From Candidatus Nitrosopumilus sp. (GTDB lineage: Archaea; Thermoproteota; Nitrososphaeria; Nitrososphaerales; Nitrosopumilaceae), in the NCBI GenBank assembly GCA_003331425.1, contig QOOS01000008.1, forward strand, positions 1 to 55,817: a stretch of 55,817 nt of DNA. The letters are read 5' to 3'. Shown here piece after piece: positions 34,449-48,349 of the stretch (positions are counted from its first letter, which is position 1; the number at the start of each line of letters is the position of its first letter). The notes under the pieces were generated by a model. It did no database searches and was not told where the DNA came from. It saw only the letters and a program-made list of their open reading frames with translations. The translations under genes were made by a program, and so were the position numbers.

Positions 34449-35378
34449 TTATTCAGAAGAATCTTCTGTTTTAGGAGCTTGATCAGCTTTCAAGCCTTTG
34501 TATCTATTTCTGATTGTTACTTCAGTTACTCCTGCAGCTTCTGCAAGGTCACGTTGAGTGATAGATACTCCATTTTTTACACAAGAGAGATACAATGCAG
34601 TTGCTGCAAGCCCCATAGGATCTTTACCTGCAGATTCTTTTCGTTCTTGAGCTTCTTTCAATACTTTAACTGCATAACGTTTAGTTTTTTCAGAAATTTC
34701 TAACTTACTTGAAATTCGTGCAATACATTGAATTGAATCAACCACAGGCATCTTCAATTCTAATTCGTGATGCAATAATCGATAGCATCTTGCAATGTCT
34801 TTTCTTTTAACATTTGCTGAATCTGCTATATCTTTTAGAGTTCTAGGGGTTTCGGTATCTCTACATGCAGCATATAACGATGCAGCAATCATTGCAGAAA
34901 TGGAACGACCTCTAACTAATTTTTTCTCTAATGCTTTTCTGTAAATATAAGCTGCTTTTTCAAGAACATTTGCAGGAACTGAAACTTTATCTTTTAATTT
35001 ATTTAAATCACTTAGTGCTTGTCTGAGATTTCTATCAACAGGTTCATGAACTTGACTTCTGCTGTCCCAAGTTCTAAGACGTTCAATTGTACTTTTCATT
35101 GAAGTTGATAATGGTTTTCCAGATGCATCTTTGTTTAATGGATTGATAACAGTGGATAATCCCATGTCATGTATCATTAATGATGAAGGGGCACCTGTTC
35201 TAGCTGGATCCGCACCACCATCTTTTTGAAATGATCTCCATTCAGGTCCAGATTCTTGAGATTTTTCTGAAACCACATAACCACATTTTGAACAAAATTG
35301 TTCTCCAGTAACATCATCAGTAAGAAGAGAATTTTTTCCACAACGTAAACAACTTGGTGTTGAATTGGCAGCAACCAT
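34449..35378 (-). CDS. tfb: transcription initiation factor TFB
   Basis: A 309-residue archaeal TFIIB homologue. The N-terminal zinc ribbon uses CLRCGK and CSKCG (about residues 10-35), followed by the B-finger/reader (GPEWRSF) and two cyclin-like repeats (about 110-200 and 205-300). The second repeat ends with the BRE-contact helix-turn-helix QRDLAEAAGVTEVTIRNRYK. It recruits RNA polymerase to TBP-bound promoters. Thaumarchaea carry several TFB copies; this is one. The Alba gene follows 10 nt upstream on the same strand. Confidence 0.96.
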   Translation of the reverse strand: MVAANSTPSCLRCGKNSLLTDDVTGEQFCSKCGYVVSEKSQESGPEWRSFQKDGGADPARTGAPSSLMIHDMGLSTVINPLNKDASGKPLSTSMKSTIERLRTWDSRSQVHEPVDRNLRQALSDLNKLKDKVSVPANVLEKAAYIYRKALEKKLVRGRSISAMIAASLYAACRDTETPRTLKDIADSANVKRKDIARCYRLLHHELELKMPVVDSIQCIARISSKLEISEKTKRYAVKVLKEAQERKESAGKDPMGLAATALYLSCVKNGVSITQRDLAEAAGVTEVTIRNRYKGLKADQAPKTEDSSE

Positions 35379-35388
35379 TTTGATTACC

Positions 35389-35673
35389 CTAAGAATTTTT
35401 CCTAGTTATAGTAATTTCAATTGTTGAGACATCCCTATTTCTTCCATCAGTAGAAACAAGAGATTCAGAATTTATTGAAACATTACTAATTTCAAATGCA
35501 GGATGTGTTTTCTTTAATACTACTTGTGAAACATCAATTGCAATTGAAGTAGTCAATCCCCTTGCTTTGATAGTAACTTTAGGTTTAGTGGCTAATTGAA
35601 CAATTGTAGATGTAACATAGGTCATTAATGGTTTTTTACCGACGAAAATTGTATCATTTGAGTTATTAGACAT
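35389..35673 (-). CDS. alba: Alba DNA/RNA-binding chromatin protein
   Basis: A 94-residue Alba: IFVGKKPLMTYVTSTIVQL at the start, KARGLTTSIAIDVSQVV in the middle (the loop and helix of the fold), and EITITRKN at the end. It binds DNA or RNA as a dimer. The lysine pair GKKPLM corresponds to the usual KP(V/L)M nucleic-acid region, which is acetylated in some archaea. Upstream of tfb on the same strand (10-nt gap). A TATA-like TTTAAATTA lies 26 nt upstream of the ATG. Confidence 0.93.
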   Translation of the reverse strand: MSNNSNDTIFVGKKPLMTYVTSTIVQLATKPKVTIKARGLTTSIAIDVSQVVLKKTHPAFEISNVSINSESLVSTDGRNRDVSTIEITITRKNS

Positions 35674-35858
35674 ACAGGAGTAATTTTCAGGTCTAATTTA
35701 AACAGATAGTTCAAATGATCAAAATCAATTAAACGGCCAGATAATGTGAGATCTCAATCGATCAGTCAATTTGATTAAATTCAATGAGTAGTATGCATGA
35801 ATTTAGATTTTTGATACAAAGACTAAACCTTTTAAAATATACATTATAGAACGAAATT

Positions 35859-36281
35859 ATGAAACAAAAAGCAGCATCACGAAATATCAAAATTTTAGTT
35901 GCAAAATTGGGTCTTGACGGACATGATAGAGGGGCACTAGTCTTGTGTCGAGCATTTAGAGATGCAGGAATGGAAGTCATCTATTCAGGATTGTTTGCAA
36001 CACCAGACAGAATTGCACAGATTGTAGAAGATGAAGACGTAGATGCAGTTGCAATGAGTTTGTTAAATGGAGCACACGGAACATTGTTTCCAAGAGTCGT
36101 TAAAACTCTCAAAAAGAAAGGAATCAAGGATGTGTTAATTGTAGGCGGAGGAGTAATTCCAGAAATTGATCATAAAGATTTAGTTAAATCAGGAGTTGAC
36201 CACGTGTTTGGTCCAGGTACACCATTACCAACAATTATTGATCATATCAATACAGGCGTATCTAAATTAAGAAAAATATAA
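35859..36281 (+). CDS. mcmA2: methylmalonyl-CoA mutase small (cobalamin-binding) subunit
   Basis: A 140-residue B12-binding domain with the base-off DxHxxG motif in KLGLDGHDRGALV, and the later S-x-L and GG motifs (AMSLLNGAHG, IVGGGVI). It carries the adenosylcobalamin that the large subunit (28913-30514) needs. It stands apart from that gene, separated by 5.3 kb with the aminopeptidase, TFB and Alba between. A TATA-like TTTTAAAATATA is about 24 nt before the ATG, so it has its own promoter. Confidence 0.95.
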   Translation: MKQKAASRNIKILVAKLGLDGHDRGALVLCRAFRDAGMEVIYSGLFATPDRIAQIVEDEDVDAVAMSLLNGAHGTLFPRVVKTLKKKGIKDVLIVGGGVIPEIDHKDLVKSGVDHVFGPGTPLPTIIDHINTGVSKLRKI

Positions 36282-36293
36282 AATAAAAAAAGA

Positions 36294-37292
36294 TTATTCT
36301 GTGGAATCAGGCCACATCATTTTTCGCATTTCTTTACCAACTTTTTCAATTTGGTGTTCATCATTTTGTTTCATGTATTGATCAAATGCCTCTGAACCTT
36401 TTGACTGATATTCAGATATCCACTCGTTGTTGAAAGTACCGTCTTGAATCATGGTAAGAACTTTTTTCATGTTAGCTTTGCTTGCAGCATCCATAACAAT
36501 TGGTCCACGCGTTAAACCACCATATCTAGCAGTTTCACTTACACGTCTCCACATACCATTAATTCCATATCTTTGAATCATGTCGACAATTAGTTTGAGT
36601 TCATGTAAAACTTCAAAGTATGCGATTTCTGGTTGATATCCTCCTTCAACTAGAGTTTCAAATGCATTTGTTACCATAGAAGCTGCACCGCCACAAAGGT
36701 CTGCTTGTTCACCGAACCAATCAGTTTCAACTTCTTCTTTGAAAGCAGTTTTGATTAATCCAGCTCTTGCACTACCAATTGCTTTTGCAATTCCTAAAGT
36801 TCTGTCCCAAGCTTTTCCTGTAAAGTCTTGTTCGACTGCAACAATAGATGGGGTACCAAAGTTATCAAGATAAGTTTCTCGAACTTTAGAACCTGGTCCT
36901 TTTGGAGCAACCATAATAAGATCTACATTACTTGGTGCTTCAATCCATTTCCAATAGATTGCAGCTGCATGAGAAAATGACAATGCTTTTCCTTCTGAAA
37001 GATTTGGTGCGATTTCATCTTTGTAAATTTGACCCTGAATCATATCTGGAAGTAAGATGTGAATAATGTCTCCTTGTTTAGTTGCTTCTGCAACAGACAT
37101 TACTTTATGACCATCAGCTTCGGCTTTTTTCCAGCTTTTTCCACCTTCTTTAAGACCGACAATAACATTGAGACCAGAGTCTTTCATGTTATTTGCTTGA
37201 GCATCACCTTGAATTCCATAACCGATTACAGCGATTGTTTGATCCTTAATTGGATCTAGACTGATTTCGTTATCTTTCCATGTTTTTGCCAT
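36294..37292 (-). CDS. ilvC: ketol-acid reductoisomerase (class I)
   Basis: A 332-residue KARI that makes dihydroxy acids in valine, leucine and isoleucine synthesis. NADPH-binding start IAVIGYGIQGDAQANNMKDSG; active-site region PKGPGSKVRETY, and the C-terminal ETDWFGEQADLCGGAASMV with the metal-binding acidic residues and DELKLIVDMIQRYGI. Length fits the short class I form. A TATA-like TTAATATTT is about 24 nt upstream. Convergent with the cobalamin subunit gene, 12 nt apart. Confidence 0.96.
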   Translation of the reverse strand: MAKTWKDNEISLDPIKDQTIAVIGYGIQGDAQANNMKDSGLNVIVGLKEGGKSWKKAEADGHKVMSVAEATKQGDIIHILLPDMIQGQIYKDEIAPNLSEGKALSFSHAAAIYWKWIEAPSNVDLIMVAPKGPGSKVRETYLDNFGTPSIVAVEQDFTGKAWDRTLGIAKAIGSARAGLIKTAFKEEVETDWFGEQADLCGGAASMVTNAFETLVEGGYQPEIAYFEVLHELKLIVDMIQRYGINGMWRRVSETARYGGLTRGPIVMDAASKANMKKVLTMIQDGTFNNEWISEYQSKGSEAFDQYMKQNDEHQIEKVGKEMRKMMWPDSTE

Positions 37293-37349
37293 AAGGTGTC
37301 TAAAGGATTAGCAAATATTAACCATGAAAATACATTCAGAGTGAAAAAA

Positions 37350-37469
37350 CTAGATTTCAATTACATTGTCACAAGAACGACATTTGACAGTAACCTTTTC
37401 TCCTGGAAGTCTTATGAATCTTTTAGAACCACATTTGGGGCAAATTGGACATGAACGTGCTGGCTCCAT
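37350..37469 (-). CDS. tiny zinc-ribbon protein (39 aa)
   Basis: A 39-residue frame, ATG to TAG, with two CxxC pairs: CPICPKCG and CRSC, 18 residues apart (MEPARSCPICPKCGSKRF, ..VTVKCRSCDNVIEI). This is a complete small zinc ribbon like those of ribosomal L37Ae-like or transcription proteins. It is 37 nt downstream of the EF-Tu-like gene on the same strand, so they may be one operon. Unnamed; likely nucleic-acid or ribosome related by fold only. Confidence 0.7.
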   Translation of the reverse strand: MEPARSCPICPKCGSKRFIRLPGEKVTVKCRSCDNVIEI

Positions 37470-37506
37470 CAAATAGTTAGGAGATGATAGATTTTATTAA
37501 ATTACG

Positions 37507-38427
37507 CTATAGAATTTTTCCACTGCCTAAAATTCTGATAGTAGTAGATTCAGGTTTTAAAATAACTGCAATATCATTTTTTTTACAAACAATAGGTTTC
37601 TCAAAAACTAATTTTAATGGAGTTATGGAAGAAAACTTTGCAGCTTTAGTTTGTAATCCAATATTTACAAGGCAGCCTTGATTTTCAGTAATTTCACTTT
37701 TGTAAAATGGACTTTTCTCAAAATCAAGTTCAATTTCAGTTTTAATTTCAACTGCATCCTCAACAGAAATTACATCACCGCGTCCAACTTCATCAGGTTT
37801 TGCACCCTTTACTGCAAGACCTACTCTAGCAGGGCAAATGGATTCAGAGACAGGATCATCGTGCATTTGAATTGATTTTATTAAAACATCAATGTTGTGA
37901 GGATATAATTTCAGATTATCATATTGTTTGATTGTTCCATTGGATACTTTTCCTAAAATAACAGTTCCAACACCTTTGACATCAAAACAATGATCAATTA
38001 ATAATTCAGCAGGATTATCATTTGTAATTGGTTCAAGAGCATTCATCTCTTCTTTAATCTTGTCTTGTTCAACACGGGTATAATTTTCAACAACAGTTCC
38101 CTTAATCATCATGTTTAGTTTTGATTCATCAACATCAAATGTATGAGACAAAATCCCTTTTTCCTTTTTTAATGAATCCAAAGCAATTATTTGTTCGCCA
38201 GTGAATTTATCTAATTTATCTACATGAAATATCACATATTCAGCCAAATTAATTGCCTGAAACAAAGGCTGAATTTTTTCAGGAAATCCATTTGGGATGA
38301 CCCAAGTTTTGATAACATCAGATTCTTTTCGATCATAAAGAGTCAAATCAGACTCGGTACCTTTTTTTCCAAATTCTGATGCAAGATCTTGCTTACCTAA
38401 TACAACAAAATTGATAGATTTTACCAT
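37507..38427 (-). CDS. SelB/EF-Tu-like protein without a GTP-binding P-loop
   Basis: A 306-residue translation-factor-like protein. Residues about 1-130 occupy the place of a G domain but the P-loop G-x4-GK(S/T) is missing (the start reads INFVVLGKQDLASEFGKKG) and no DxxG is seen; only HVDKLDKFTGEQ recalls NKxD. Residues about 140-230 are a normal domain II (HCFDVKGVGTVILGKVSNG then KSIQMHDDPV), and a domain III follows, ending TTIRILGSGKIL. So it is a relative of archaeal SelB-like factors that probably no longer hydrolyses GTP. It may be a ribosome or tRNA-binding factor. Confidence 0.75.
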   Translation of the reverse strand: MVKSINFVVLGKQDLASEFGKKGTESDLTLYDRKESDVIKTWVIPNGFPEKIQPLFQAINLAEYVIFHVDKLDKFTGEQIIALDSLKKEKGILSHTFDVDESKLNMMIKGTVVENYTRVEQDKIKEEMNALEPITNDNPAELLIDHCFDVKGVGTVILGKVSNGTIKQYDNLKLYPHNIDVLIKSIQMHDDPVSESICPARVGLAVKGAKPDEVGRGDVISVEDAVEIKTEIELDFEKSPFYKSEITENQGCLVNIGLQTKAAKFSSITPLKLVFEKPIVCKKNDIAVILKPESTTIRILGSGKIL

Positions 38428-38480
38428 AATAATAAAACAAAAAAATCGTTCTTATGAATTTTTGAATTTAAAATAAATGA

Positions 38481-38615
38481 TCAATGCTTGTGATTTTTGA
38501 TACAGCTATCACAATATTCATTTCCACATTCATCACAAGAAATTAGCTGTCCTGGCCTATATCCTGTAAAACATTCATCACAACTTGTGCCATTCATATC
38601 ACAATTTAGAAGCAT
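38481..38615 (-). CDS. tiny Cys-rich zinc-finger protein (44 aa)
   Basis: A 44-residue frame with three CxxC-type pairs: CDMNGTSCDEC, SCDECGNEYC and CDSCIKNHKH. The layout (three pairs plus two terminal His) recalls RING, FYVE or B-box-like cross-brace folds with two zinc ions. ATG to TGA in the gap between the pseudo-GTPase and the hydrolase, same strand as both. No family recognised. Confidence 0.7.
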   Translation of the reverse strand: MLLNCDMNGTSCDECFTGYRPGQLISCDECGNEYCDSCIKNHKH

Positions 38616-38671
38616 AATTTTAAAAAGATTTTACTGTTTGAGGGTAAATTTAGGCAGGATTTAAAATAAAA

Positions 38672-39424
38672 TTACGGAAATTTTTTCAGTACAGATGCAT
38701 AACTTGCAAATCTATGATTTTTAGGTTTCAGCAAAATTTGAGTGTATTTTGAAACAGGTTTTCCAGTTGCTCCATTAAGCCCCAAAGGACCATTAACAAA
38801 TTTTTCCTTTTCTGCCCAACCTAAAACCTCATCAGATGGAGCATAGTGGTTAACAATTTTTTTCTTTACGATATTTTGAAGAGTTTTTCCATATTTTTTT
38901 GAAGAAGGAACATCATCAGTAATAGATGCACCAAAAAAATATACTCCTTCTACAATTTCAAAATTACTTTTCTTTTTTGCAAGATATTCCAAAGTACTCA
39001 AGATAACCTGAGTACCAAGAGAGTGTCCAATTAAACGAATTTTTGTATTAGGGCTATCAGATTTGAAATCTTCAATAAATTTCCCCAAGTTACGTCCATT
39101 TTTCTTTGCAATAACTTGTCCTGCCGCCAATGATCTTTTTGCATATTTCAGTAAATGAGCACCCGTAGTGTTTGAATCATAACTATATCCAATTACAGGA
39201 TAAGAGTACCCCAATTTTTTTAGTTTATTTTTTGCCAAAATAACTTTTGCAATTGCTCCAGCATTATCATTTCTCAAACCATGAATCATTATTGTTAATT
39301 CTTTTGAATCAATTAATTTTTTGAAATCTTGTTTTGGATACAGATAGTATGAATTATTTTTGATAGTTTTTCCATTTAGTAAATTATAGTATCCACGAGT
39401 TGAAATTCTTGGGACAGGTTTCAT
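38672..39424 (-). CDS. alpha/beta hydrolase-like protein
   Basis: A 250-residue cytoplasmic protein with the nucleophile elbow GHSLGTQV (IRLIGHSLGTQVILSTLEYL, Ser near the middle), an oxyanion-type MIHGLRND near residue 46, and a C-terminal region with NHYAPSDEVLGWAE that could supply the catalytic Asp and a final His (KNHRFASY). The family (alpha/beta hydrolases, DUF726/DUF900-like) includes lipases and esterases; the substrate is unknown. It starts 3 nt before the stop of metG, so it is in the same operon. Confidence 0.8.
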   Translation of the reverse strand: MKPVPRISTRGYYNLLNGKTIKNNSYYLYPKQDFKKLIDSKELTIMIHGLRNDNAGAIAKVILAKNKLKKLGYSYPVIGYSYDSNTTGAHLLKYAKRSLAAGQVIAKKNGRNLGKFIEDFKSDSPNTKIRLIGHSLGTQVILSTLEYLAKKKSNFEIVEGVYFFGASITDDVPSSKKYGKTLQNIVKKKIVNHYAPSDEVLGWAEKEKFVNGPLGLNGATGKPVSKYTQILLKPKNHRFASYASVLKKFP

Positions 39425-39426
39425 AA

Positions 39427-41082
39427 TTATTCAGATGGACCTAATTCTTTTTTGTATTTTTCAATATCAGATTTTTCAATTCTTGCAAACAATGGTGAAG
39501 CGTCACCAAGTGTGTGTCCAGATGAAATACCCAATTCAGATTGAGAAGACCACGACATATCAGCCACATTTCCATCAAGGCCTAATTGTTCCCAAATTTT
39601 TTGGGCAGACTCAGGCACAAATGGGAATATAGCAATGGCAAAACTCCTAACTGCATTTACAGATAGATATACACAATTTGCAGTTCCAGGACCATTTTTC
39701 CAAGGTTCCTTGTGTTGGAAATACTGATTGAAAAATGAAGAAACCTCCATAATTTTCTTTAATGCCCTATCCAAGTGGTTTTGCTCCATTAAAGTAGAAA
39801 CATCAGTAGCAAGGGATTTTATTTTTTGTTCTGCTTCAGAATCTTTTTCATCAAATGATTCAATTTCAGGAATTTGTCCATCAAATGATTTTTTTGTAAA
39901 TCCTAAAGCACGATTAACAAAATTTCCTAAATTACCAATTAATTCAGAATTTATTCTAGTTGTAAAATCATCCCAGTCAAAATTCAAATCATCTTGGGAG
40001 TAGGGATTAATAGAAACAAGATAAAATCTCAAGTAATCTGCAGGATAGTATTGTAAAAATTGTTTTAATCCAATGTACCAATTTCTACTCTTAGATATTT
40101 TTTTTCCTTGAAGTGTAAGATGACCTCTAGTTGGAATGTAGGTAGGTAATTTGAATTCTTTATTGATTCCCAATCTCATTGCAGGTAAGAATAGATAATG
40201 ATGATACACGATATCTTTTCCAATAAAATGATAAATGTCTGCAGAGTTCCAAAACTCTTTTCCATCTATTCCCTTATCATTGAGAAATTTTAATGCAGTA
40301 GAAATGTATGCAAGGTGATTATCAAACCACCCATAGAATACTTTACCATCTGCATTATCAAGTGGAACAGGAACACCCCAAGGAATATCTCTAGTAATAT
40401 CCCAATCAATTAATCCAGATTTAATCCAGTTTTGAACATATTTTTTGACATCCTTTTGAAGAGTGGTAGTTTCTTCCAACCATTCAGATAATGAATCACC
40501 AAAATTTTTGAGTTTGAAAAAGTAATGATTAGTTTTTTCCTTTGTCGGAGTTTGGCCACAAAGAGAACATTTTGGATCAGTAATCTCTTCAGGTACACGC
40601 CCACAACTCTCACATAAATCAGAATATTGATCCTCAGCCTTGCAATGAGGGCAAATTCCTTTCACATATCTGTCAGGAAGGAATTTTTTATCATTATTGC
40701 AATAAAATTGGATTATTTCCTTTTCATAAATATGACCAGCGTCATTTAATTTCTTAAAAACATCTTGTACAAAGGAGATATTTTCTGAAGAGCTTGTTTT
40801 GTAGAAATAATCAAAATTAATTCCAAATGCAGTAAAATCATCATAATCACGTTTATTCCAATGAGCAACATAATCAGCAGGAGTTTTACCTTGTTTTTCA
40901 GACTGAATTAGGATAGGAGTTCCAAAATCATCAGATGCACAGACATAGTATGCTTCAACCCCGTTTTGTTTTAGAAATCTTGTAGTTACATCTGCTGGAA
41001 GATACGTAGATGCAACATGACCCAAGTGGATCTCACCATTTGCATATGGCAATGCACTTGTAATTATAGCTCTTTTATTCAT
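39427..41082 (-). CDS. metG: methionyl-tRNA synthetase
   Basis: A 551-residue class I synthetase that charges tRNA-Met. HIGH-like motif in NGEIHLGHVAST, KMSKS-like KISKSRNW, and a zinc knuckle with four Cys pairs (CPHC, CESCG, CSLCG). The reading frame is open to 41127, but the family start is MNKRAIITSALPYANG, which begins at 41082. No C-terminal tRNA-binding (EMAP-like) domain is attached. It precedes the hydrolase gene with 2 nt between. Confidence 0.96.
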   Translation of the reverse strand: MNKRAIITSALPYANGEIHLGHVASTYLPADVTTRFLKQNGVEAYYVCASDDFGTPILIQSEKQGKTPADYVAHWNKRDYDDFTAFGINFDYFYKTSSSENISFVQDVFKKLNDAGHIYEKEIIQFYCNNDKKFLPDRYVKGICPHCKAEDQYSDLCESCGRVPEEITDPKCSLCGQTPTKEKTNHYFFKLKNFGDSLSEWLEETTTLQKDVKKYVQNWIKSGLIDWDITRDIPWGVPVPLDNADGKVFYGWFDNHLAYISTALKFLNDKGIDGKEFWNSADIYHFIGKDIVYHHYLFLPAMRLGINKEFKLPTYIPTRGHLTLQGKKISKSRNWYIGLKQFLQYYPADYLRFYLVSINPYSQDDLNFDWDDFTTRINSELIGNLGNFVNRALGFTKKSFDGQIPEIESFDEKDSEAEQKIKSLATDVSTLMEQNHLDRALKKIMEVSSFFNQYFQHKEPWKNGPGTANCVYLSVNAVRSFAIAIFPFVPESAQKIWEQLGLDGNVADMSWSSQSELGISSGHTLGDASPLFARIEKSDIEKYKKELGPSE

Positions 41083-41206
41083 GATACAGTTCTCAAAAGT
41101 AAAATCGGAGTTAAGAAGTTTTACCACGAAGGGAACACGTCGTTAAACAACATCATTGCCTGAAATCAATTAATTTCATAAATATGGCATATTATGGAGA
41201 AAGATA

Positions 41207-42178
41207 TTGAAATCTCTATTGATTATTGCAATAGTAGCAGTTGCTATGATTGGAGTTATGGTTCCAAATGTTTTTGCTGAAACTTCTCCAGAACAAGCAA
41301 AACCCATACCTGCATCTACATTAGAATGTGAATATGGAATTCCAGATGAATATTGTAAACAGTTGATATCCCAAAAAGATACTGATGAAGAGTTAAATAA
41401 ATTAAATAAATTAAAAAAATTAATTCCAGATAATTATAATATTTTGTCAAGTCAAATTGAATTAGATAGTTCGGGTATTGTCAAATGGCGTCAGATAAGT
41501 GCTGATGCAATTAGAAGTAATGATATGGATAATGGGGGAATTTTACTTGCACAATATGATGACAACGATAGTTTGTTGACTGCTTTTAAAATACTAAAAA
41601 ATAGTGTTGAAAATCCGGAAAATGTATCTTACTTGTCTGCAACATGTGTTGAAGGATGGCACGAAAAACAATGGAAAACAATGCTCTGTCTTAAAGATGA
41701 CATGTTCATAATGACTGGAAATAATTTTGGTGAAAGTAAATCGGTAATGAAACAAATACTGAATAAAATAGACGACACATTATCTTTACCTAAAATAGAA
41801 AATTCTAAAGACGGTGGTTGTCTAATTGCTACAGCAACATACGGTAGTGAATTAGCTCCGCAAGTTCAAATGCTTAGAGAAATTCGTGACAATCAATTGA
41901 TGAACACAGAAACTGGCTCATCTTTCATGAGCACATTCAACGATATCTATTACTCATTTAGCCCAATTATTGCTGATTATGAGCGTGAAAGTCCAATCTT
42001 CAAAGAGATTGTAAAGATTACAATTACTCCAATGATTAGTTCACTCTCACTAATGGAAAATGCTGAATCTGAATCTGAAGTATTGGGAATTGGAATCTCA
42101 GTAATTATGTTGAATTTGGGAATGTATCTTGGTATTCCAGCTATTGTTGTAGTTGGAATTAGAAAATCCATTTTTTAA
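41207..42178 (+). CDS. exported protein with C-terminal CFI-box domain
   Basis: A 323-residue protein with TTG start and a signal peptide (KSLLIIAIVAVAMIGVMVPNVFA, cleavage after FAE or so). The middle is a secreted domain with four Cys. From about residue 204, GGCLIATATYGSELAPQVQ, it has the conserved CFI-box C-terminal domain, followed by YSFSPIIADYERESPIFKE and a final TM helix (about 290-318) with a short basic end. Such domains are found on surface proteins in these archaea. An ATG 13 nt upstream is in a different frame. Function unknown. Confidence 0.75.
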   Translation: MKSLLIIAIVAVAMIGVMVPNVFAETSPEQAKPIPASTLECEYGIPDEYCKQLISQKDTDEELNKLNKLKKLIPDNYNILSSQIELDSSGIVKWRQISADAIRSNDMDNGGILLAQYDDNDSLLTAFKILKNSVENPENVSYLSATCVEGWHEKQWKTMLCLKDDMFIMTGNNFGESKSVMKQILNKIDDTLSLPKIENSKDGGCLIATATYGSELAPQVQMLREIRDNQLMNTETGSSFMSTFNDIYYSFSPIIADYERESPIFKEIVKITITPMISSLSLMENAESESEVLGIGISVIMLNLGMYLGIPAIVVVGIRKSIF

Positions 42179-42194
42179 AACAAAAATTATTTTA

Positions 42195-42380
42195 TCAAAT
42201 CCCAAATGTTTGAGATTTATCCTCACATTTTGGACATTTCAATCCATTAGTCTTAGAACCACAGTTTTTACATTTTAATTCTACTCCCATTACATCACGT
42301 GAAGGTGTCTTTACAGCTTTAACAATTAGTATTACTACAATTAGAGCCACAATTGCAATTCCTATCCATAGTAATACCAT
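42195..42380 (-). CDS. TM plus zinc-ribbon protein (61 aa)
   Basis: A 61-residue protein: one TM helix (residues about 3-23, LLWIGIAIVALIVVILIVKAV) followed by a zinc ribbon CKNCGSKTNGLKCPKCEDK facing the cytoplasm by the positive-inside rule. The small size and layout suggest a membrane-tethered adaptor. Convergent with the CFI-box gene (16 nt). No family recognised. Confidence 0.65.
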   Translation of the reverse strand: MVLLWIGIAIVALIVVILIVKAVKTPSRDVMGVELKCKNCGSKTNGLKCPKCEDKSQTFGI

Positions 42381-42460
42381 CTATTATTCAATACACAATG
42401 ATCATAGAAAAACTCTCTTGTAAAAGCAGAATATGAGTCTGAGGTGGTTTAACTAAGTCT

Positions 42461-43702
42461 CTACCAGTTATTTGCGTATTTTACTTGTTCTGGAGTTAAT
42501 TTATCAATTTTAACATCCATAGCCTTCAATGCATCAAATGCAATTTGAATATCAATTTCTTTTGGAACATCAATAATTTTATTTTCCATTTTTTTGTGAT
42601 TCTTTAAGATATACAATACAGACAAAAGTTGGTTTGAAAATGATTGTGCCATAACTTCAGGAGGATGTCCTTCTGCAGATACCAAGTTAGCAAGACGTCC
42701 TTGTCCAATCAAGTAAACTTTTTTACCATTTTTCAAAATACATTCATCAAGTGTTGGTCTAACTTCTTTAACGGATTTTGATTTCTTTAGTAAAAATTCA
42801 GCATCAATTTCAACATCAAAGTGTCCAACGTTACCCATAATTGCACCATCTTTCATTTTTAAGATGTGTTCTTTTCTAATTACACTAGTCATTCCAGTAC
42901 ATGTGATAAACATGTCACCAATTTTTGCTGCTTGTGCCATTGGCATTACTTCAAATCCATCCATGTGAGCTTCTAATGCTTTTACAGGATCAACTTCAGT
43001 TACAATTACTTTAGAGCCCATTCCACGGCATCTAGATGCGACACCACGTCCGACCCATCCGTAACCAACTACTACAACACGTTTAGATGCCATTAGTAAG
43101 TTCATGGCACGCAAGTAACCGTCAATTGTACTTTGACCAGTACCATATTGGTTGTCAAACATATGTTTGGTTACAGCTTCATTTACTAAGATTACAGGGT
43201 ATCGTAATTTTCCTTGATTTTCTACTGCTCTAATTCTAGTTACACCTGCAGTAGTTTCTTCAGTTGCTCCTAAAACTTCCATGTCTTTGAATCTTTTATC
43301 AAAATGTGCTTTGATATTCATGTCTGCACCATCATCAGTTAGAATTGTTGGTTTGTGTTTGAGTACTTGATCAATTGACCAATCATAGTCTTTTACAGAT
43401 TGTCCATGCCATGCATAAACATTGATTCCCTGTGAAGCCAAAAATGCAGCAATGTTATCTTGTGTGGTTAGAGGATTACCGCCACAAACTGCAACTGTTG
43501 CACCCAATTCTTTTGCACCCATTAGTAAAACAGAAGTTTCTTTTGTAACGTGTAAACAAAAACCAAGGGTAATTCCCTTGAGAGGTTTTGATTTTTTTAA
43601 TCGATTAATTGTATTATCCAGAATTTGCATATGAGATCTAGCCCATTCGTAAGAGAGTTTTCCTTCTTTGATCAGTTTTGGACTAGACTTTACTTTACTC
43701 AT
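42461..43702 (-). CDS. ahcY: S-adenosylhomocysteine hydrolase
   Basis: A 413-residue enzyme that splits S-adenosylhomocysteine into adenosine and homocysteine, keeping methylation running. NAD site VVVVGYGWVGRGVASRCRGMG; active-site segments ILTDDGADM, EETTAGV, NEAVTKHMFDNQYGTGQS, and C-terminal NLVSAEGHPPEVM. The family start is MSKVKSSPKLIKEG; an ORF extension of 70 residues upstream is not protein-like. A TATA-like TTTATACT lies about 27 nt before this ATG. Confidence 0.96.
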   Translation of the reverse strand: MSKVKSSPKLIKEGKLSYEWARSHMQILDNTINRLKKSKPLKGITLGFCLHVTKETSVLLMGAKELGATVAVCGGNPLTTQDNIAAFLASQGINVYAWHGQSVKDYDWSIDQVLKHKPTILTDDGADMNIKAHFDKRFKDMEVLGATEETTAGVTRIRAVENQGKLRYPVILVNEAVTKHMFDNQYGTGQSTIDGYLRAMNLLMASKRVVVVGYGWVGRGVASRCRGMGSKVIVTEVDPVKALEAHMDGFEVMPMAQAAKIGDMFITCTGMTSVIRKEHILKMKDGAIMGNVGHFDVEIDAEFLLKKSKSVKEVRPTLDECILKNGKKVYLIGQGRLANLVSAEGHPPEVMAQSFSNQLLSVLYILKNHKKMENKIIDVPKEIDIQIAFDALKAMDVKIDKLTPEQVKYANNW

Positions 43703-43724
43703 AATAATTTGCCCTCTCGGGGAG

Positions 43725-43756
43725 TATAAAATGCTATCATGCGAATGTAAATAAAT
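43725..43756. promoter_or_regulatory. divergent TATA boxes of ahcY and the Rieske gene
   Basis: The 75-nt gap between starts contains two TATA-like boxes, one per direction: ATTTTATACTC on the minus strand, centred near 43729 (27 nt before the ahcY ATG), and TAAATAAATG on the plus strand, centred near 43752 (26 nt before the Rieske ATG). Both spacings fit leaderless transcription. A small GC-rich inverted repeat (CCCTCTCGGGGAG) lies between the first box and ahcY, possibly an operator. Confidence 0.5.
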
Positions 43757-43777
43757 GACAAATAATTCAATAAACCA

Positions 43778-44080
43778 ATGGCATGGAAGAAAATTGCAGA
43801 TAAAGGCGATGTGCCAACAGGCGGAGGTAAGGCATTCAAAATTGATGGTAAACAAATTGCAATTTTTAATCAAGATGGCTATCATGCCATGGATGATCTT
43901 TGTGTGCATCAAGACGGATCAATTGCACCAGGTAAACTAGAGGGAGACATTGTAGAATGTCCATTACATTTCTGGCACTACAATATCAAAACAGGGGAAT
44001 TAGTCGATTATCTCAAAGATGTCAAATTAGAGACATACAAAGTTGAGAAAAGAGATGACGGTCTATACGTAGACATTTAG
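43778..44080 (+). CDS. Rieske [2Fe-2S] protein, soluble (NirD/ferredoxin type)
   Basis: A 100-residue protein with the two Rieske ligand pairs CVHQDGS (Cys42, His44) and CPLHFWHYN (Cys61, His64). There is no signal peptide or membrane anchor, so it is a soluble cytoplasmic ferredoxin or small subunit similar to NirD rather than a bc1 subunit. Electron carrier; its partner oxidoreductase is not adjacent. Start ATG at 43778. Confidence 0.9.
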   Translation: MAWKKIADKGDVPTGGGKAFKIDGKQIAIFNQDGYHAMDDLCVHQDGSIAPGKLEGDIVECPLHFWHYNIKTGELVDYLKDVKLETYKVEKRDDGLYVDI

Positions 44081-44086
44081 AAAAAA

Positions 44087-44578
44087 TCAACTAGTAATTT
44101 CTTTAAATTCATTTAATACTTTGATATCAACAAAATCAACATCACATTTTGCTTGAGTTTTATACGAAGAATCTATTTTGATTAATTCTGACAAAATTGC
44201 CAAACCATCTTTAACATTACCAGATTTAATTACTGAAGAGGATTTATTGTATAATGCAGTCTTATTTTGGGGCTTAATTTTCAGTACAATGTCAAAACAT
44301 CCGATAGCCACATCATACTGTCCAATGTTATGATGACACAAGCCCTTATTCAGTAATGCCAGTAAATTTTCTTTTTCTTGCAAAAGAACTTTCTCATAAC
44401 AAATTATCGCCTCATCAAATCTACCAAACCTTCCAAAAATATTACCTTTTTTTAGTAATGCCTCAAGATGTGCAGGATTTTGATCAAGAACTTTTTGATA
44501 AAAAGATAATGCCTCTTTTGGATTATCTAGATTTAATGATCTTTGGCCATCGCTCAATAATTTTGCTATTTCAGACAT
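44087..44578 (-). CDS. TPR-repeat protein (163 aa)
   Basis: Four TPR units from about residue 5: LDNPKEALSFYQKVLDQNPA, FGRFDEAIICYEKVLLQEKEN, IGQYDVAIGCFDIVLKIKPQN and a weaker fourth. The start MSEIAKLLSDGQ at 44578 is preferred; the frame is open five residues further (44593), overlapping the end of the methyltransferase gene on the same strand. A scaffold protein with unknown partner, the third TPR gene in the window. Confidence 0.75.
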   Translation of the reverse strand: MSEIAKLLSDGQRSLNLDNPKEALSFYQKVLDQNPAHLEALLKKGNIFGRFGRFDEAIICYEKVLLQEKENLLALLNKGLCHHNIGQYDVAIGCFDIVLKIKPQNKTALYNKSSSVIKSGNVKDGLAILSELIKIDSSYKTQAKCDVDFVDIKVLNEFKEITS

Positions 44579-44589
44579 AACGAAAAACC

Positions 44590-45348
44590 TCAAGTAATTA
44601 CATTAACAAACACATTTCCAAATGTAAAACATTTGTCATCAATAGTTACATCAATTGAAATGGGTTCTAGAGAGGTATCCAACATAGATTTAATTTCATT
44701 TTTGGTAAACCACTGACTTCTAAAACCAATACTATTGTGAAAAACTCTATTTGTTTCATCAAAAGAATCATCATCTATTTGTTTAATCATTGGTAGCATA
44801 GAATGATACAGTTTTGGTGCAACAAAGCCAAAATCATCTCCATTAAACATGGTCAAAATTACCAATCCATTTTTTCCAGCAATAGTTTTCATATTGTTAA
44901 TGAAGCTTAGTCGTTTATCAGAGGGAACCACACCCATCGTATTATATGAACACATTACAATGTTGGAATTTTTTAACTCAAAGTATTGAGATAGTTTTGA
45001 ATCAGTTAGATCATATTTTAAAAAAGTTATTTCCGATAAACCATTATGAGAAATATTTTTCTGATTTGCATAATTCAACATAGAATCAGAATTTTCAACA
45101 CCAAAAAATTCAATTGAGTTATTGCGTAATTTTTTGTCCAGTGCAAAAACTACTCTACCAGTACCAGCACCCATATCAATTATTGAGAAATTTTTGTGTG
45201 AATCACTATGTTTTTGGCATAAAGTGTTTAGAATTTCAATTTCTTTTTTAAGATAATTAATAATTAAGGGATTTTGGTTGTCTTCCACACTTTTATCATA
45301 ATCAGCAGCCAATCCATCCCAGGATTTATTATCCATAAATTTCTCCAT
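44590..45348 (-). CDS. class I SAM-dependent methyltransferase
   Basis: A 252-residue protein. The SAM-binding motif I is IIDMGAGTGRVVFALD, motif II follows with FGVENSDSML, and the later SNIVMCSYNTMGVV corresponds to motif IV; C-terminal beta-rich part closes the substrate pocket. A small-molecule or protein methyltransferase; the substrate cannot be told. The start may be MDNKSWDGLA, four residues in. Upstream of the TPR gene on the same strand. Confidence 0.8.
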   Translation of the reverse strand: MEKFMDNKSWDGLAADYDKSVEDNQNPLIINYLKKEIEILNTLCQKHSDSHKNFSIIDMGAGTGRVVFALDKKLRNNSIEFFGVENSDSMLNYANQKNISHNGLSEITFLKYDLTDSKLSQYFELKNSNIVMCSYNTMGVVPSDKRLSFINNMKTIAGKNGLVILTMFNGDDFGFVAPKLYHSMLPMIKQIDDDSFDETNRVFHNSIGFRSQWFTKNEIKSMLDTSLEPISIDVTIDDKCFTFGNVFVNVIT

Positions 45349-45440
45349 TTTTCAATTAATTTAAAGTCTAAGATGATTATCCGATTAAAGACTAGTATTA
45401 CAGTTCAATTAATATTCCAAGAAATTTTTTAGAAATATCA

Positions 45441-46232
45441 TTGAATCAAGACATCATAAACAAAATAATTTCTCAAGATTATGCTTCAATTACAAATAAA
45501 ATTGAAGAGTTTATGGAGAATGAATTAAAGAAAAATAATTCAAAAGGGATTATTTTAGGACTAAGCGGAGGAATTGATTCAGCAGTTTTAACATACATTT
45601 GTAAAAGAAAATTCAAAGAAAAAACACTTGCATTAATCATGCCAGATACGGATATCACACCTAATAGTGAAACTGAAGATGCAATGAAAATAATCAGTTT
45701 GACAGGAATTGAACATAAACTAATCGACATAAAGCCAATTGTAAATGAATATTCCATGTATTTGGTACCTAATGAGAAATCAAAAGGAAATCTCAGAGCA
45801 AGAATTAGATCAAACATACTCTACTATTATGCAAATATTGAAAATTATTTGGTACTAGGTTCCAGTGATAAAAGCGAATATCTGATTGGATACTTTACAA
45901 AATATGGAGATGGTGCATCAGATATGACACCAATTGTTTCATTGTATAAATTACAAGTTAGAGAAATTGCAAAATACTTGGGAATACCAGAAAACATAAT
46001 ATCAAAAAAGAGTAGCCCACATCTTTGGAAAGATCATGAAGCAGAAGCAGAACTAGGCACACAATACGAAGAAGTAGACTCAATTTTGTATTGTCTTATT
46101 GAAAACGGACTTTCAATTCAAGAGACGGTAGAGGCAACGGGGATAGACAAAGAGATAGTTGAAAAAATTTATAATTTAAACATAAACAGTGAACATAAAA
46201 GATTACTACCACAAAAATATGATATAAAATAA
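45441..46232 (+). CDS. nadE: NH3-dependent NAD+ synthetase
   Basis: A 263-residue NadE that amidates nicotinic acid adenine dinucleotide using ATP and ammonia, the last step of NAD synthesis. PP-loop motif LGLSGGIDSAV at about residue 39, then IMPDTDITPN and the later GSSDKSEYLIGYFTKYGDGASDM, RIKKSSPHLWKDHEAE-like region, all family-typical. No glutaminase domain, so free ammonia is the donor, which suits an ammonia oxidiser. TTG start. The cysS ATG follows after one base. Confidence 0.95.
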   Translation: MNQDIINKIISQDYASITNKIEEFMENELKKNNSKGIILGLSGGIDSAVLTYICKRKFKEKTLALIMPDTDITPNSETEDAMKIISLTGIEHKLIDIKPIVNEYSMYLVPNEKSKGNLRARIRSNILYYYANIENYLVLGSSDKSEYLIGYFTKYGDGASDMTPIVSLYKLQVREIAKYLGIPENIISKKSSPHLWKDHEAEAELGTQYEEVDSILYCLIENGLSIQETVEATGIDKEIVEKIYNLNINSEHKRLLPQKYDIK

Positions 46233-46233
46233 T

Positions 46234-47622
46234 ATGAATATTCAAGATACATTATCTAATACCGAACAAAAATTAGACAATTCAGAGAAAATTAAGATTT
46301 ACCTTTGTGGGGTGACGGTTTATGATGAGTCACATATAGGACACGCCAGAACAATTATTGTATTTGACGTATTAAGAAAATATTTAGAAAGTAAGAAGCA
46401 ACAAGTGGAATTAATTCAAAACTTTACAGATGTGGATGACAAAATAATCAATCGAGCAAAAGATGAAAAAGTATCAGCGCAAGAAATAAGCAAAAGGTAT
46501 ATCGATAATTATTTCAGAGATTTTGATAAATTAAACATTCAACGTGCGACAAACTATCCTAAAGCAACAGAACATATTGATGACATTATTGAATTTATAA
46601 AAAAATTAATTGAAAAGGGAATTGCATATGTTTCAGAAAATGGAGTATATTTTTCAGTATCAAAATTTCCAGAGTATGGAAAACTATCTAAGAAAAAAAT
46701 TGATGAGTTAAAATCAGGTTCCAGAATACAAATTGATGAGACAAAAAAAGATCCACTGGATTTTGCAGTATGGAAATTTTCAGACATTGAACCATTATGG
46801 GATAGTCCATGGGGAAAGGGTAGACCAGGATGGCATATCGAGTGCTCAGTTATGAGTATGAAGTATCTTGGCGGGAATTTTGACATTCATGGAGGAGGAA
46901 GAGACCTAATTTTTCCACATCACGAAAATGAGATTGCACAGTCTGAAGCACACTCGGATTGTAAATTTGCCAAAATTTGGATGCATGTAGGAATGGTAAC
47001 TATAACAGGAGAGAAAATGTCTAAATCCTTAGGTAATACAAAATCAATCAAGCACGTATTAGAAAATTGGGGACCAAACATAATTAGATTATTTTGTTTA
47101 TCAGGGCATTATTCAAAAGTAATAGACTATTCTGAAGAAATGCTAAAAGAAAACATTACAAAATGGAGACAAGTAGAAACATGTTACTTTGAATTAATTC
47201 ACGCCAACAGTAATGAGCAAGAAGACATTTCAGATAAAATTAAAAACATTAGTTTAGAATTTGACAAGTCATTAGAAGATGATTTAAACACACATCTGGC
47301 ATTATCAACATTTTTTCAACTTGTTAAAGAAACAAACAGATTGGCAGCATCAGAAAAACTAGGAATAGAAAATGCGCAAATCATAATGAAGGAATTTGAA
47401 AGAATTTCAAATATTTTGGGATTAGAAGTTCCTAAAATGAATCAAGAAGAAAAACAAGAAATCGATAATTTGATATCAAATAGAGAAAAATTACGAGAAG
47501 AAAAACAATTTGAAAAAGCTGATCAAATTAGAGATGAATTAAATGAAATGAATATAGAACTAATTGATCATAAAGGAAAAACAATTTGGATGAAAAAAGA
47601 GAAAATCAAAAAAGATTGTTAA
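46234..47622 (+). CDS. cysS: cysteinyl-tRNA synthetase
   Basis: A 462-residue class I synthetase with the HIGH motif in YDESHIGHARTI, the zinc ligand Cys in YLCGVTVYD, GWHIECSVM and HHENEIAQSEAH, and the KMSKS motif GEKMSKSLGN. The C-terminal anticodon-binding region is shortish but present. It is downstream of nadE (1-nt gap) and is clearly co-transcribed. Full length for the family. Confidence 0.96.
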   Translation: MNIQDTLSNTEQKLDNSEKIKIYLCGVTVYDESHIGHARTIIVFDVLRKYLESKKQQVELIQNFTDVDDKIINRAKDEKVSAQEISKRYIDNYFRDFDKLNIQRATNYPKATEHIDDIIEFIKKLIEKGIAYVSENGVYFSVSKFPEYGKLSKKKIDELKSGSRIQIDETKKDPLDFAVWKFSDIEPLWDSPWGKGRPGWHIECSVMSMKYLGGNFDIHGGGRDLIFPHHENEIAQSEAHSDCKFAKIWMHVGMVTITGEKMSKSLGNTKSIKHVLENWGPNIIRLFCLSGHYSKVIDYSEEMLKENITKWRQVETCYFELIHANSNEQEDISDKIKNISLEFDKSLEDDLNTHLALSTFFQLVKETNRLAASEKLGIENAQIIMKEFERISNILGLEVPKMNQEEKQEIDNLISNREKLREEKQFEKADQIRDELNEMNIELIDHKGKTIWMKKEKIKKDC

Positions 47623-47797
47623 AAAATTAATTAAATTTATTTTCATACGCCAATTTTGATGATTAAGTCATTAACAAACACAATATTATTTTTTCACTAT
47701 GTCTAAGCCCAATAGTGGTGTGAAATATTTAGATTTGTAACATAGAATGAATATCAAGTAAACTGATTTAACTAGTAGTATTTGAAATAATACCAAG

Positions 47798-48349
47798 TTG
47801 ACAGGAATTTACGACGATAGAATATTGAGTTTTACCAATGAGTGGATTAACACAAACGACCTGTGTAGGCTCGTAAAAGGGGATAGAACGAGGATAATTC
47901 CTGCCTGCAAGGAATTAGTCGAGTTGGGATATTTGGATATGAAAACAGATGGATATGTCAAACGTTACAAAAGATTAGACAAAGCCCAAAGTCAAAAACA
48001 GTTTGATCATTTGATAGAACTTTTTGAATCTAACAAACTGATTGCAATAGATGAAATTAACGAAATGAAAACCATTGTAACAAAAAAAGGAATTCTAACA
48101 AAACGAGGGGAAGCATTACTTGATTGGATTCAATCAGAATTAATTGATAGATCTTTCATGGTTATGACACGATTAAAGTATCAAGATACATTGAAGCTAC
48201 TACCACACAGTGTAGTTAACAAAAGATTACAAAGAATTGATCAATTTGTTGACAGTGTTATGAAATCATTAGCTCCTTTGAAACAAGAAAAACTAATTTT
48301 AGAAAGATTTCAAAATCATACTCACAAACTAGAACCATTCAAGATTTAA
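47798..48349 (+). CDS. winged-helix domain protein, paralogue of the gene at 2230
   Basis: A 183-residue protein, TTG start (TTGACAGG), paralogous over its whole length to the one at 2230-2793. N-terminal winged helix (residues about 1-60: YDDRILSFTNEWINTNDLCR then GDRTRIIPACKELVELGYL), helical C-terminal domain with VVNKRLQRIDQFVDSVMKSL. A GTATT/AATAC inverted repeat is seen just upstream (about 47779-47794) and may be an operator. Probably a transcription factor; target unknown. Confidence 0.6.
   Translation: MTGIYDDRILSFTNEWINTNDLCRLVKGDRTRIIPACKELVELGYLDMKTDGYVKRYKRLDKAQSQKQFDHLIELFESNKLIAIDEINEMKTIVTKKGILTKRGEALLDWIQSELIDRSFMVMTRLKYQDTLKLLPHSVVNKRLQRIDQFVDSVMKSLAPLKQEKLILERFQNHTHKLEPFKI

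Follow-up and report, generated by a model that had tools for sequence, protein, structure and literature searches.

Genes and features at the locus

The window, a stretch of 55,817 nucleotides of contig QOOS01000008.1 from Candidatus Nitrosopumilus sp., carries the gene for aSelBL, a protein related to the elongation factors SelB and EF-Tu, and the gene for a 39-aa zinc ribbon, whose start lies 37 nt past the aSelBL stop on the same strand, an arrangement that the first-pass annotation had described correctly (Table 1).

Table 1. Features of the aSelBL locus, in window coordinates
Feature	Position	Strand	Basis
aSelBL (SelB/EF-Tu-like pseudo-GTPase), 306 aa	37507..38427	(-)	ORF with ATG start; match to MM1309 3wnb; AlphaFold model
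Residues 11-19, expected P-loop (G1) position	38371..38397	(-)	Pairwise alignment with MM1309 against the P-loop residues in PMC4329189; 39-sequence alignment
Residues 20-28, GKKGTESDL, putative switch I/G2 remnant	38344..38370	(-)	Conservation; MM1309 contacts from PMC4329189
Asp145-His146, putative aminoacyl-pocket pair	37990..37995	(-)	PMC3037878 and ungapped alignment to 4ac9
EF-Tu domain II core, residues 154-220, with Arg201 and Arg216	37768..37968	(-)	PF03144 E 2.4e-10; conserved columns
39-aa zinc ribbon with two CxxC pairs; neighbour	37350..37469	(-)	ATG at 37469, stop ends 37350

Pfam recognises EF-Tu domain 2 alone in the 306-aa protein (PF03144, residues 154-220, E 2.4e-10) and has no match for its domain III, and the NCBIfam SelB model TIGR00475 matches residues 124-294 (2.5e-18) at 66 bits, far under its cut-off of 242. 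Domain III is covered by a structural match that runs across all 306 residues, and domains II and III are thus SelB/EF-Tu-like, as had been proposed. The modelled chain stops with domain III and has no C-terminal extension, so that a SECIS-related domain is missing. The GTPase signatures are absent as well, there being no GxxxxGK[ST] in the protein, no DxxG or DxPGH at the G3 place and no NKxD at the G4 place. When PF00009 was run over the whole genome it matched five other proteins, with aSelBL not among them. The description of an EF-Tu/SelB-like factor whose GTPase domain is dead therefore holds, and it fits a family that has already been published.

What, then, is this protein? In a phmmer comparison with the PDB, the Methanosarcina mazei protein MM1309 scores best (3wnb, E 1.6e-30), followed by aSelB (7e-15). 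An AlphaFold model built from 39 homologues has a closed three-domain shape and is confident throughout (pLDDT 95.7, pTM 0.93), including the N-terminal pseudo-G domain for which a structure prediction had been suggested and which takes the MM1309 fold. VIA-align places the model on 3wnb with a Z of 39.2 and 1.7 Å over 302 residues, the next structures being aIF2-gamma, SelB, EF1A and EF-Tu near Z 31 (runner-up 31.9), and Foldseek likewise ranks MM1309 first. The window protein is almost certainly the Nitrosopumilus member of aSelBL/aEF-X, a SelB paralogue without the SECIS-recognition domain. The earlier idea of a new type of factor consequently falls, as the family was described in 2011 by Atkinson, Hauryliuk and Tenson, with Nitrosopumilus maritimus in the table and the broken G domain discussed (PMC3037878; see also PMC4329189), and the window adds a further species to it.

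With the divergent branch of that family, characterised by a G1 deletion, KGT in place of RGITI and a conserved aminoacyl pocket (PMC3037878), the window protein shares three domains, the lack of a C-terminal SECIS domain, the G1 deletion, the KGTxx motif for G2, the pocket residues Asp145, His146 and Arg201, and a nearby MetRS as in Thaumarchaeota, and nothing essential sets it apart. MM1309 (3wnb, 3wnc, 3wnd; PMC4329189) has the same fold, 30 % identity, the GKKGT switch-I remnant and the lock residues, but retains a modified P-loop and binds GTP. Relative to MM1309, the window protein lacks about six residues between its first strand and GKKGT in the pairwise alignment, in the stretch by which MM1309 holds the phosphates (Lys11-Ser16) (PMC4329189). 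Archaeal SelB (M. maripaludis 4ac9, 4acb; Z 31.7) is alike in domains I-III and in the aminoacyl-pocket residues, Asp145-His146 having its counterpart in Asp191-His192 (PMC3037878), but it carries Sec-tRNA and has, besides an intact P-loop, DxPGH and NKxD, a SECIS-related domain at its C-terminus. Archaeal SelD is reported to be confined to Methanococcales and Methanopyrus (PMC3037878). Finally, EF1A/EF-Tu and aIF2-gamma have the overall three-domain fold in common with the window protein (Z about 31) but are true GTPases with a nucleotide-driven cycle; the GTPase motifs G1-G4 are missing here.

The zinc ribbon and the gene neighbourhood

The ribbon is found in 24/24 Nitrosopumilaceae genomes of the order sample and in 44/61 genomes of a wider family sample, some of whose members are incomplete, and no curated family clearly matches it. 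Together with the occurrence of full-length aSelBL in 30/30 Nitrosopumilaceae genomes of the phylum sample, this establishes both genes as real. A partnership between the two had been proposed from their adjacency, which is common but variable: among 80 named Nitrosopumilaceae loci listed, 41 have the ribbon no more than 60 nt downstream of aSelBL, nine of them with the two genes overlapping by 4 nt, as would suit an obligate two-protein complex. Against such a complex, the ribbon follows an NMNAT in 21 of these loci and another spacer in 8 (with 4 undetermined), and is not seen within 2.4 kb of aSelBL in 6.

The intervening gene in many Nitrosopumilus relatives, lying between aSelBL and the ribbon, encodes a nicotinamide-nucleotide adenylyltransferase (NMNAT; NF002243, E 1.3e-57), the stop codon of which often overlaps the ribbon start. 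In the 61-genome sample, compared by position, a full-length NMNAT-1 is followed by the ribbon no more than 30 nt downstream in 23/23 Nitrosopumilaceae genomes. In the genomes examined from Nitrososphaeraceae and neighbouring groups the genes run MetRS-NMNAT-ribbon, with ilvC next in several and aSelBL elsewhere, and in Nitrososphaeraceae and some Nitrosopumilaceae examined the ribbon and aSelBL are far apart or on different contigs. These linkage counts weaken the case for an obligate partner, and an obligate complex is very unlikely. Within the family the ribbon tracks the full NMNAT even where aSelBL is elsewhere, so that the adjacency stands but gives the partnership no specific support; the ribbon is probably a neighbour of aSelBL and not its dedicated partner, which clears away a likely false lead, and a loose functional link between them is conceivable. 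The adjacency is best explained as the remnant of an older cluster, the one NMNAT-type gene left in the genome of the window being a distant paralogue (33 % identity), with the result that the ribbon ended up beside aSelBL. A ribbon downstream of NMNAT also occurs at L012 2456-3105 and L082 9246-9895.

The MetRS gene, reported upstream of aSelBL in three of four thaumarchaea (PMC3037878), was considered as a functional clue and set aside, as MetRS-NMNAT-ribbon(-ilvC) also occurs in lineages where aSelBL is elsewhere, from which it follows that the cluster probably existed before aSelBL moved into it. Just upstream of aSelBL, at 38481-38615 (-), lies a 44-aa Cys/His-rich peptide that is B-box-like, with a weak Pfam match only. 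Some ten close Nitrosopumilus relatives have conserved it; elsewhere among the relatives it has decayed or is absent. Directly upstream of CysRS there is a NAD-synthetase-like gene, identified by eye from the sequence (45441-47622 (+) for the pair), such that genes for NAD and for aminoacyl-tRNA (NAD-synthetase-like, NMNAT, MetRS, CysRS) share a neighbourhood. No Rfam element was matched in 35000-48000, and the window holds no tRNA gene.

Motif loss and conservation across the lineage

Beyond the Nitrosopumilaceae, nearly all Nitrososphaeraceae sampled have aSelBL, as do scattered further families, the family of part of the sampled genomes being assigned from named relatives and kinship. It occurs across an archaeal family that ranks among the most abundant in the ocean, and is missing from the genomes of one genus of a sister family (f2 g10), which indicates that its function is dispensable. 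A copy 89 % identical to that of the window, on a contig labelled as a Phycisphaerae bacterium (JAJDDX010000030.1), is probably a binning error.

Orthologues with an intact P-loop would have pointed to a local loss. Of 74 homologous ORFs that were read, some 70 of them distinct and four repeating other loci, none has GxxxxGK[ST], DxPGH at G3 or NKxD at G4; a chance [NT]KxD occurs elsewhere in the sequence of a few relatives, and stretches resembling a degraded P-loop are restricted to some deep relatives (GSNVTQKT, GSDAETKS). Judged from these reading frames, the loss of the P-loop within the phylum is ancient and general. The more distant methanogen homologues still have a P-loop, modified by a K to R change, and do bind GTP (PMC4329189), so that a statement of no GTP binding applies at most to the divergent branch.

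The loss of every GTPase motif could in principle mark a decaying SelB copy with its G domain under relaxed selection. However, the gene is retained throughout the sampled Nitrosopumilaceae, its switch-I remnant is well conserved, and its pseudo-G domain has a median pairwise dN/dS of 0.07 across 16 gapless Nitrosopumilaceae coding sequences, as low as in domain II (0.089) and domain III (0.088), values that are approximate since dS is near saturation and of which only the comparison between domains is meaningful. The pseudo-G domain is thus under purifying selection and not decaying; relaxed selection was rejected and decay is given almost no credence.

Within the pseudo-G domain, conservation is highest at GKKGTxSD (residues 20-27), with Lys21 in 39/39 sequences of the alignment. 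In the MM1309 crystal the former switch I lies away from the nucleotide and lines the aminoacyl pocket, and this stretch touches His179, Arg234 and Arg249 of domain II (PMC4329189), residues that an ungapped alignment places at His146, Arg201 and Arg216 of the window protein. Of these, Arg201 is invariant, Arg216 is conserved and His146 is present in 27/39, while Asp145 is present in 39/39. The 12 sequences that lack His146 belong mostly to Sulfolobales-like and deep Nitrososphaerales-like groups, and the pocket is therefore not uniform. Thr/Ser24, His146 and Arg216 are all kept in 27/39 sequences; Thr/Ser24 is lost in 9/39, all nine of which also lack His146 and six of which lack Arg216. This pattern is suggestive of the switch-I remnant and its domain II contacts tending to be kept or lost together, a covariation that is confounded by phylogeny in that the losses are confined to two or three clades.

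A possible nucleotide-free aminoacyl-tRNA binder

What a broken SelB is for is a vague question, which the data here sharpen to something testable, namely whether aSelBL that lacks a P-loop can bind Cys-tRNA when no GTP is present. The reading preferred here, tentatively and at a little short of an even chance, is that aSelBL acts as a closed, nucleotide-free binder of aminoacyl-tRNA, probably Cys-tRNA-Cys, which it would protect or carry. A single aminoacyl-tRNA would have its acceptor end held between the pseudo-G domain and domain II, with the P-loop deleted and binding taking place without a GTP/GDP switch. GKKGTxSD would dock on His146, Arg201 and Arg216 of domain II, thereby keeping the molecule in a closed, GTP-like shape, and would also contribute part of the amino-acid pocket. 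The labile aminoacyl-tRNA would in this way be protected or carried, and perhaps passed to the ribosome or EF1A. On this reading switch I, once a nucleotide sensor, would have become a fixed clasp.

The proposal draws on family membership, fold, lineage-wide motif loss, purifying selection and the retained lock and pocket residues observed here and, by analogy, on the M. mazei homologue, from which alone come the binding of GTP unhydrolysed, the protection of Cys-tRNA, with a half-life of Cys-tRNA-Cys that rises from 80 to 300 min (PMC4329189), and the lock contacts in the crystal. For Nitrosopumilus we infer both nucleotide independence and Cys specificity. The pocket residues in question also accommodate selenocysteine in SelB, and Cys-tRNA-Cys was the only ligand tried with MM1309, which makes the specificity tentative. 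That aSelBL is an aminoacyl-tRNA carrier operating without any nucleotide, with switch I as a permanent lock on domain II, throughout the sampled Nitrosopumilaceae, which are ammonia oxidisers, is possible and more doubtful. Binding of aminoacyl-tRNA without GTP by a P-loop-less aSelBL would, if true, be new, the rest being already known; no experimental follow-up of the family after 2015 was found in the open-access literature searched.

Two other roles have to be weighed. MM1309 binds GTP with a Kd of 0.43 µM and has no GTPase activity (PMC4329189), and the ribosome-contact patches of domain II in aSelBL are reported to be conserved (PMC3037878), which would suit an alternative ribosomal elongation factor that holds a nucleotide at its degenerate site, as conservative aSelBL does, and supplies the A site with Cys-tRNA or other tRNAs. 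Such a factor is unlikely here, given that the MM1309 phosphate contacts lie in the very stretch that is deleted, the G4 motif was not found and the catalytic His is absent in all. A role outside translation, in tRNA maturation or as a structural subunit with the EF-Tu fold serving as a tRNA or protein scaffold, is held to be equally improbable: no function has been shown in Nitrososphaeria and the neighbours are mixed (MetRS, CysRS, NMNAT, ilvC), but invariant Asp145 and Arg201 would be needless for a mere scaffold and the neighbourhood is not specific to aSelBL.

With regard to the supply of the putative ligand of a Cys-tRNA binder, the genome has an ordinary CysRS and SepRS similarity is only sub-threshold, which implies that Cys-tRNA-Cys is made by the direct route. 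The CysRS gene lies in the window at 46234-47622, 8 kb from aSelBL, and is 5-18 kb from it in 21/24 Nitrosopumilaceae. Where aSelBL lies elsewhere (Nitrososphaeraceae, G029, G089) CysRS stays near the ribbon, so that its closeness to aSelBL is a legacy of the older cluster and was discounted as support for the Cys-tRNA idea, CysRS tracking the ribbon and not aSelBL. As a separate observation, a second, divergent CysRS-like paralogue (33-36 % identity) is encoded at G089:C1:1051710-1052804 and G029:C10:195399-196505, respectively 7 kb and 20 kb from the relocated aSelBL.
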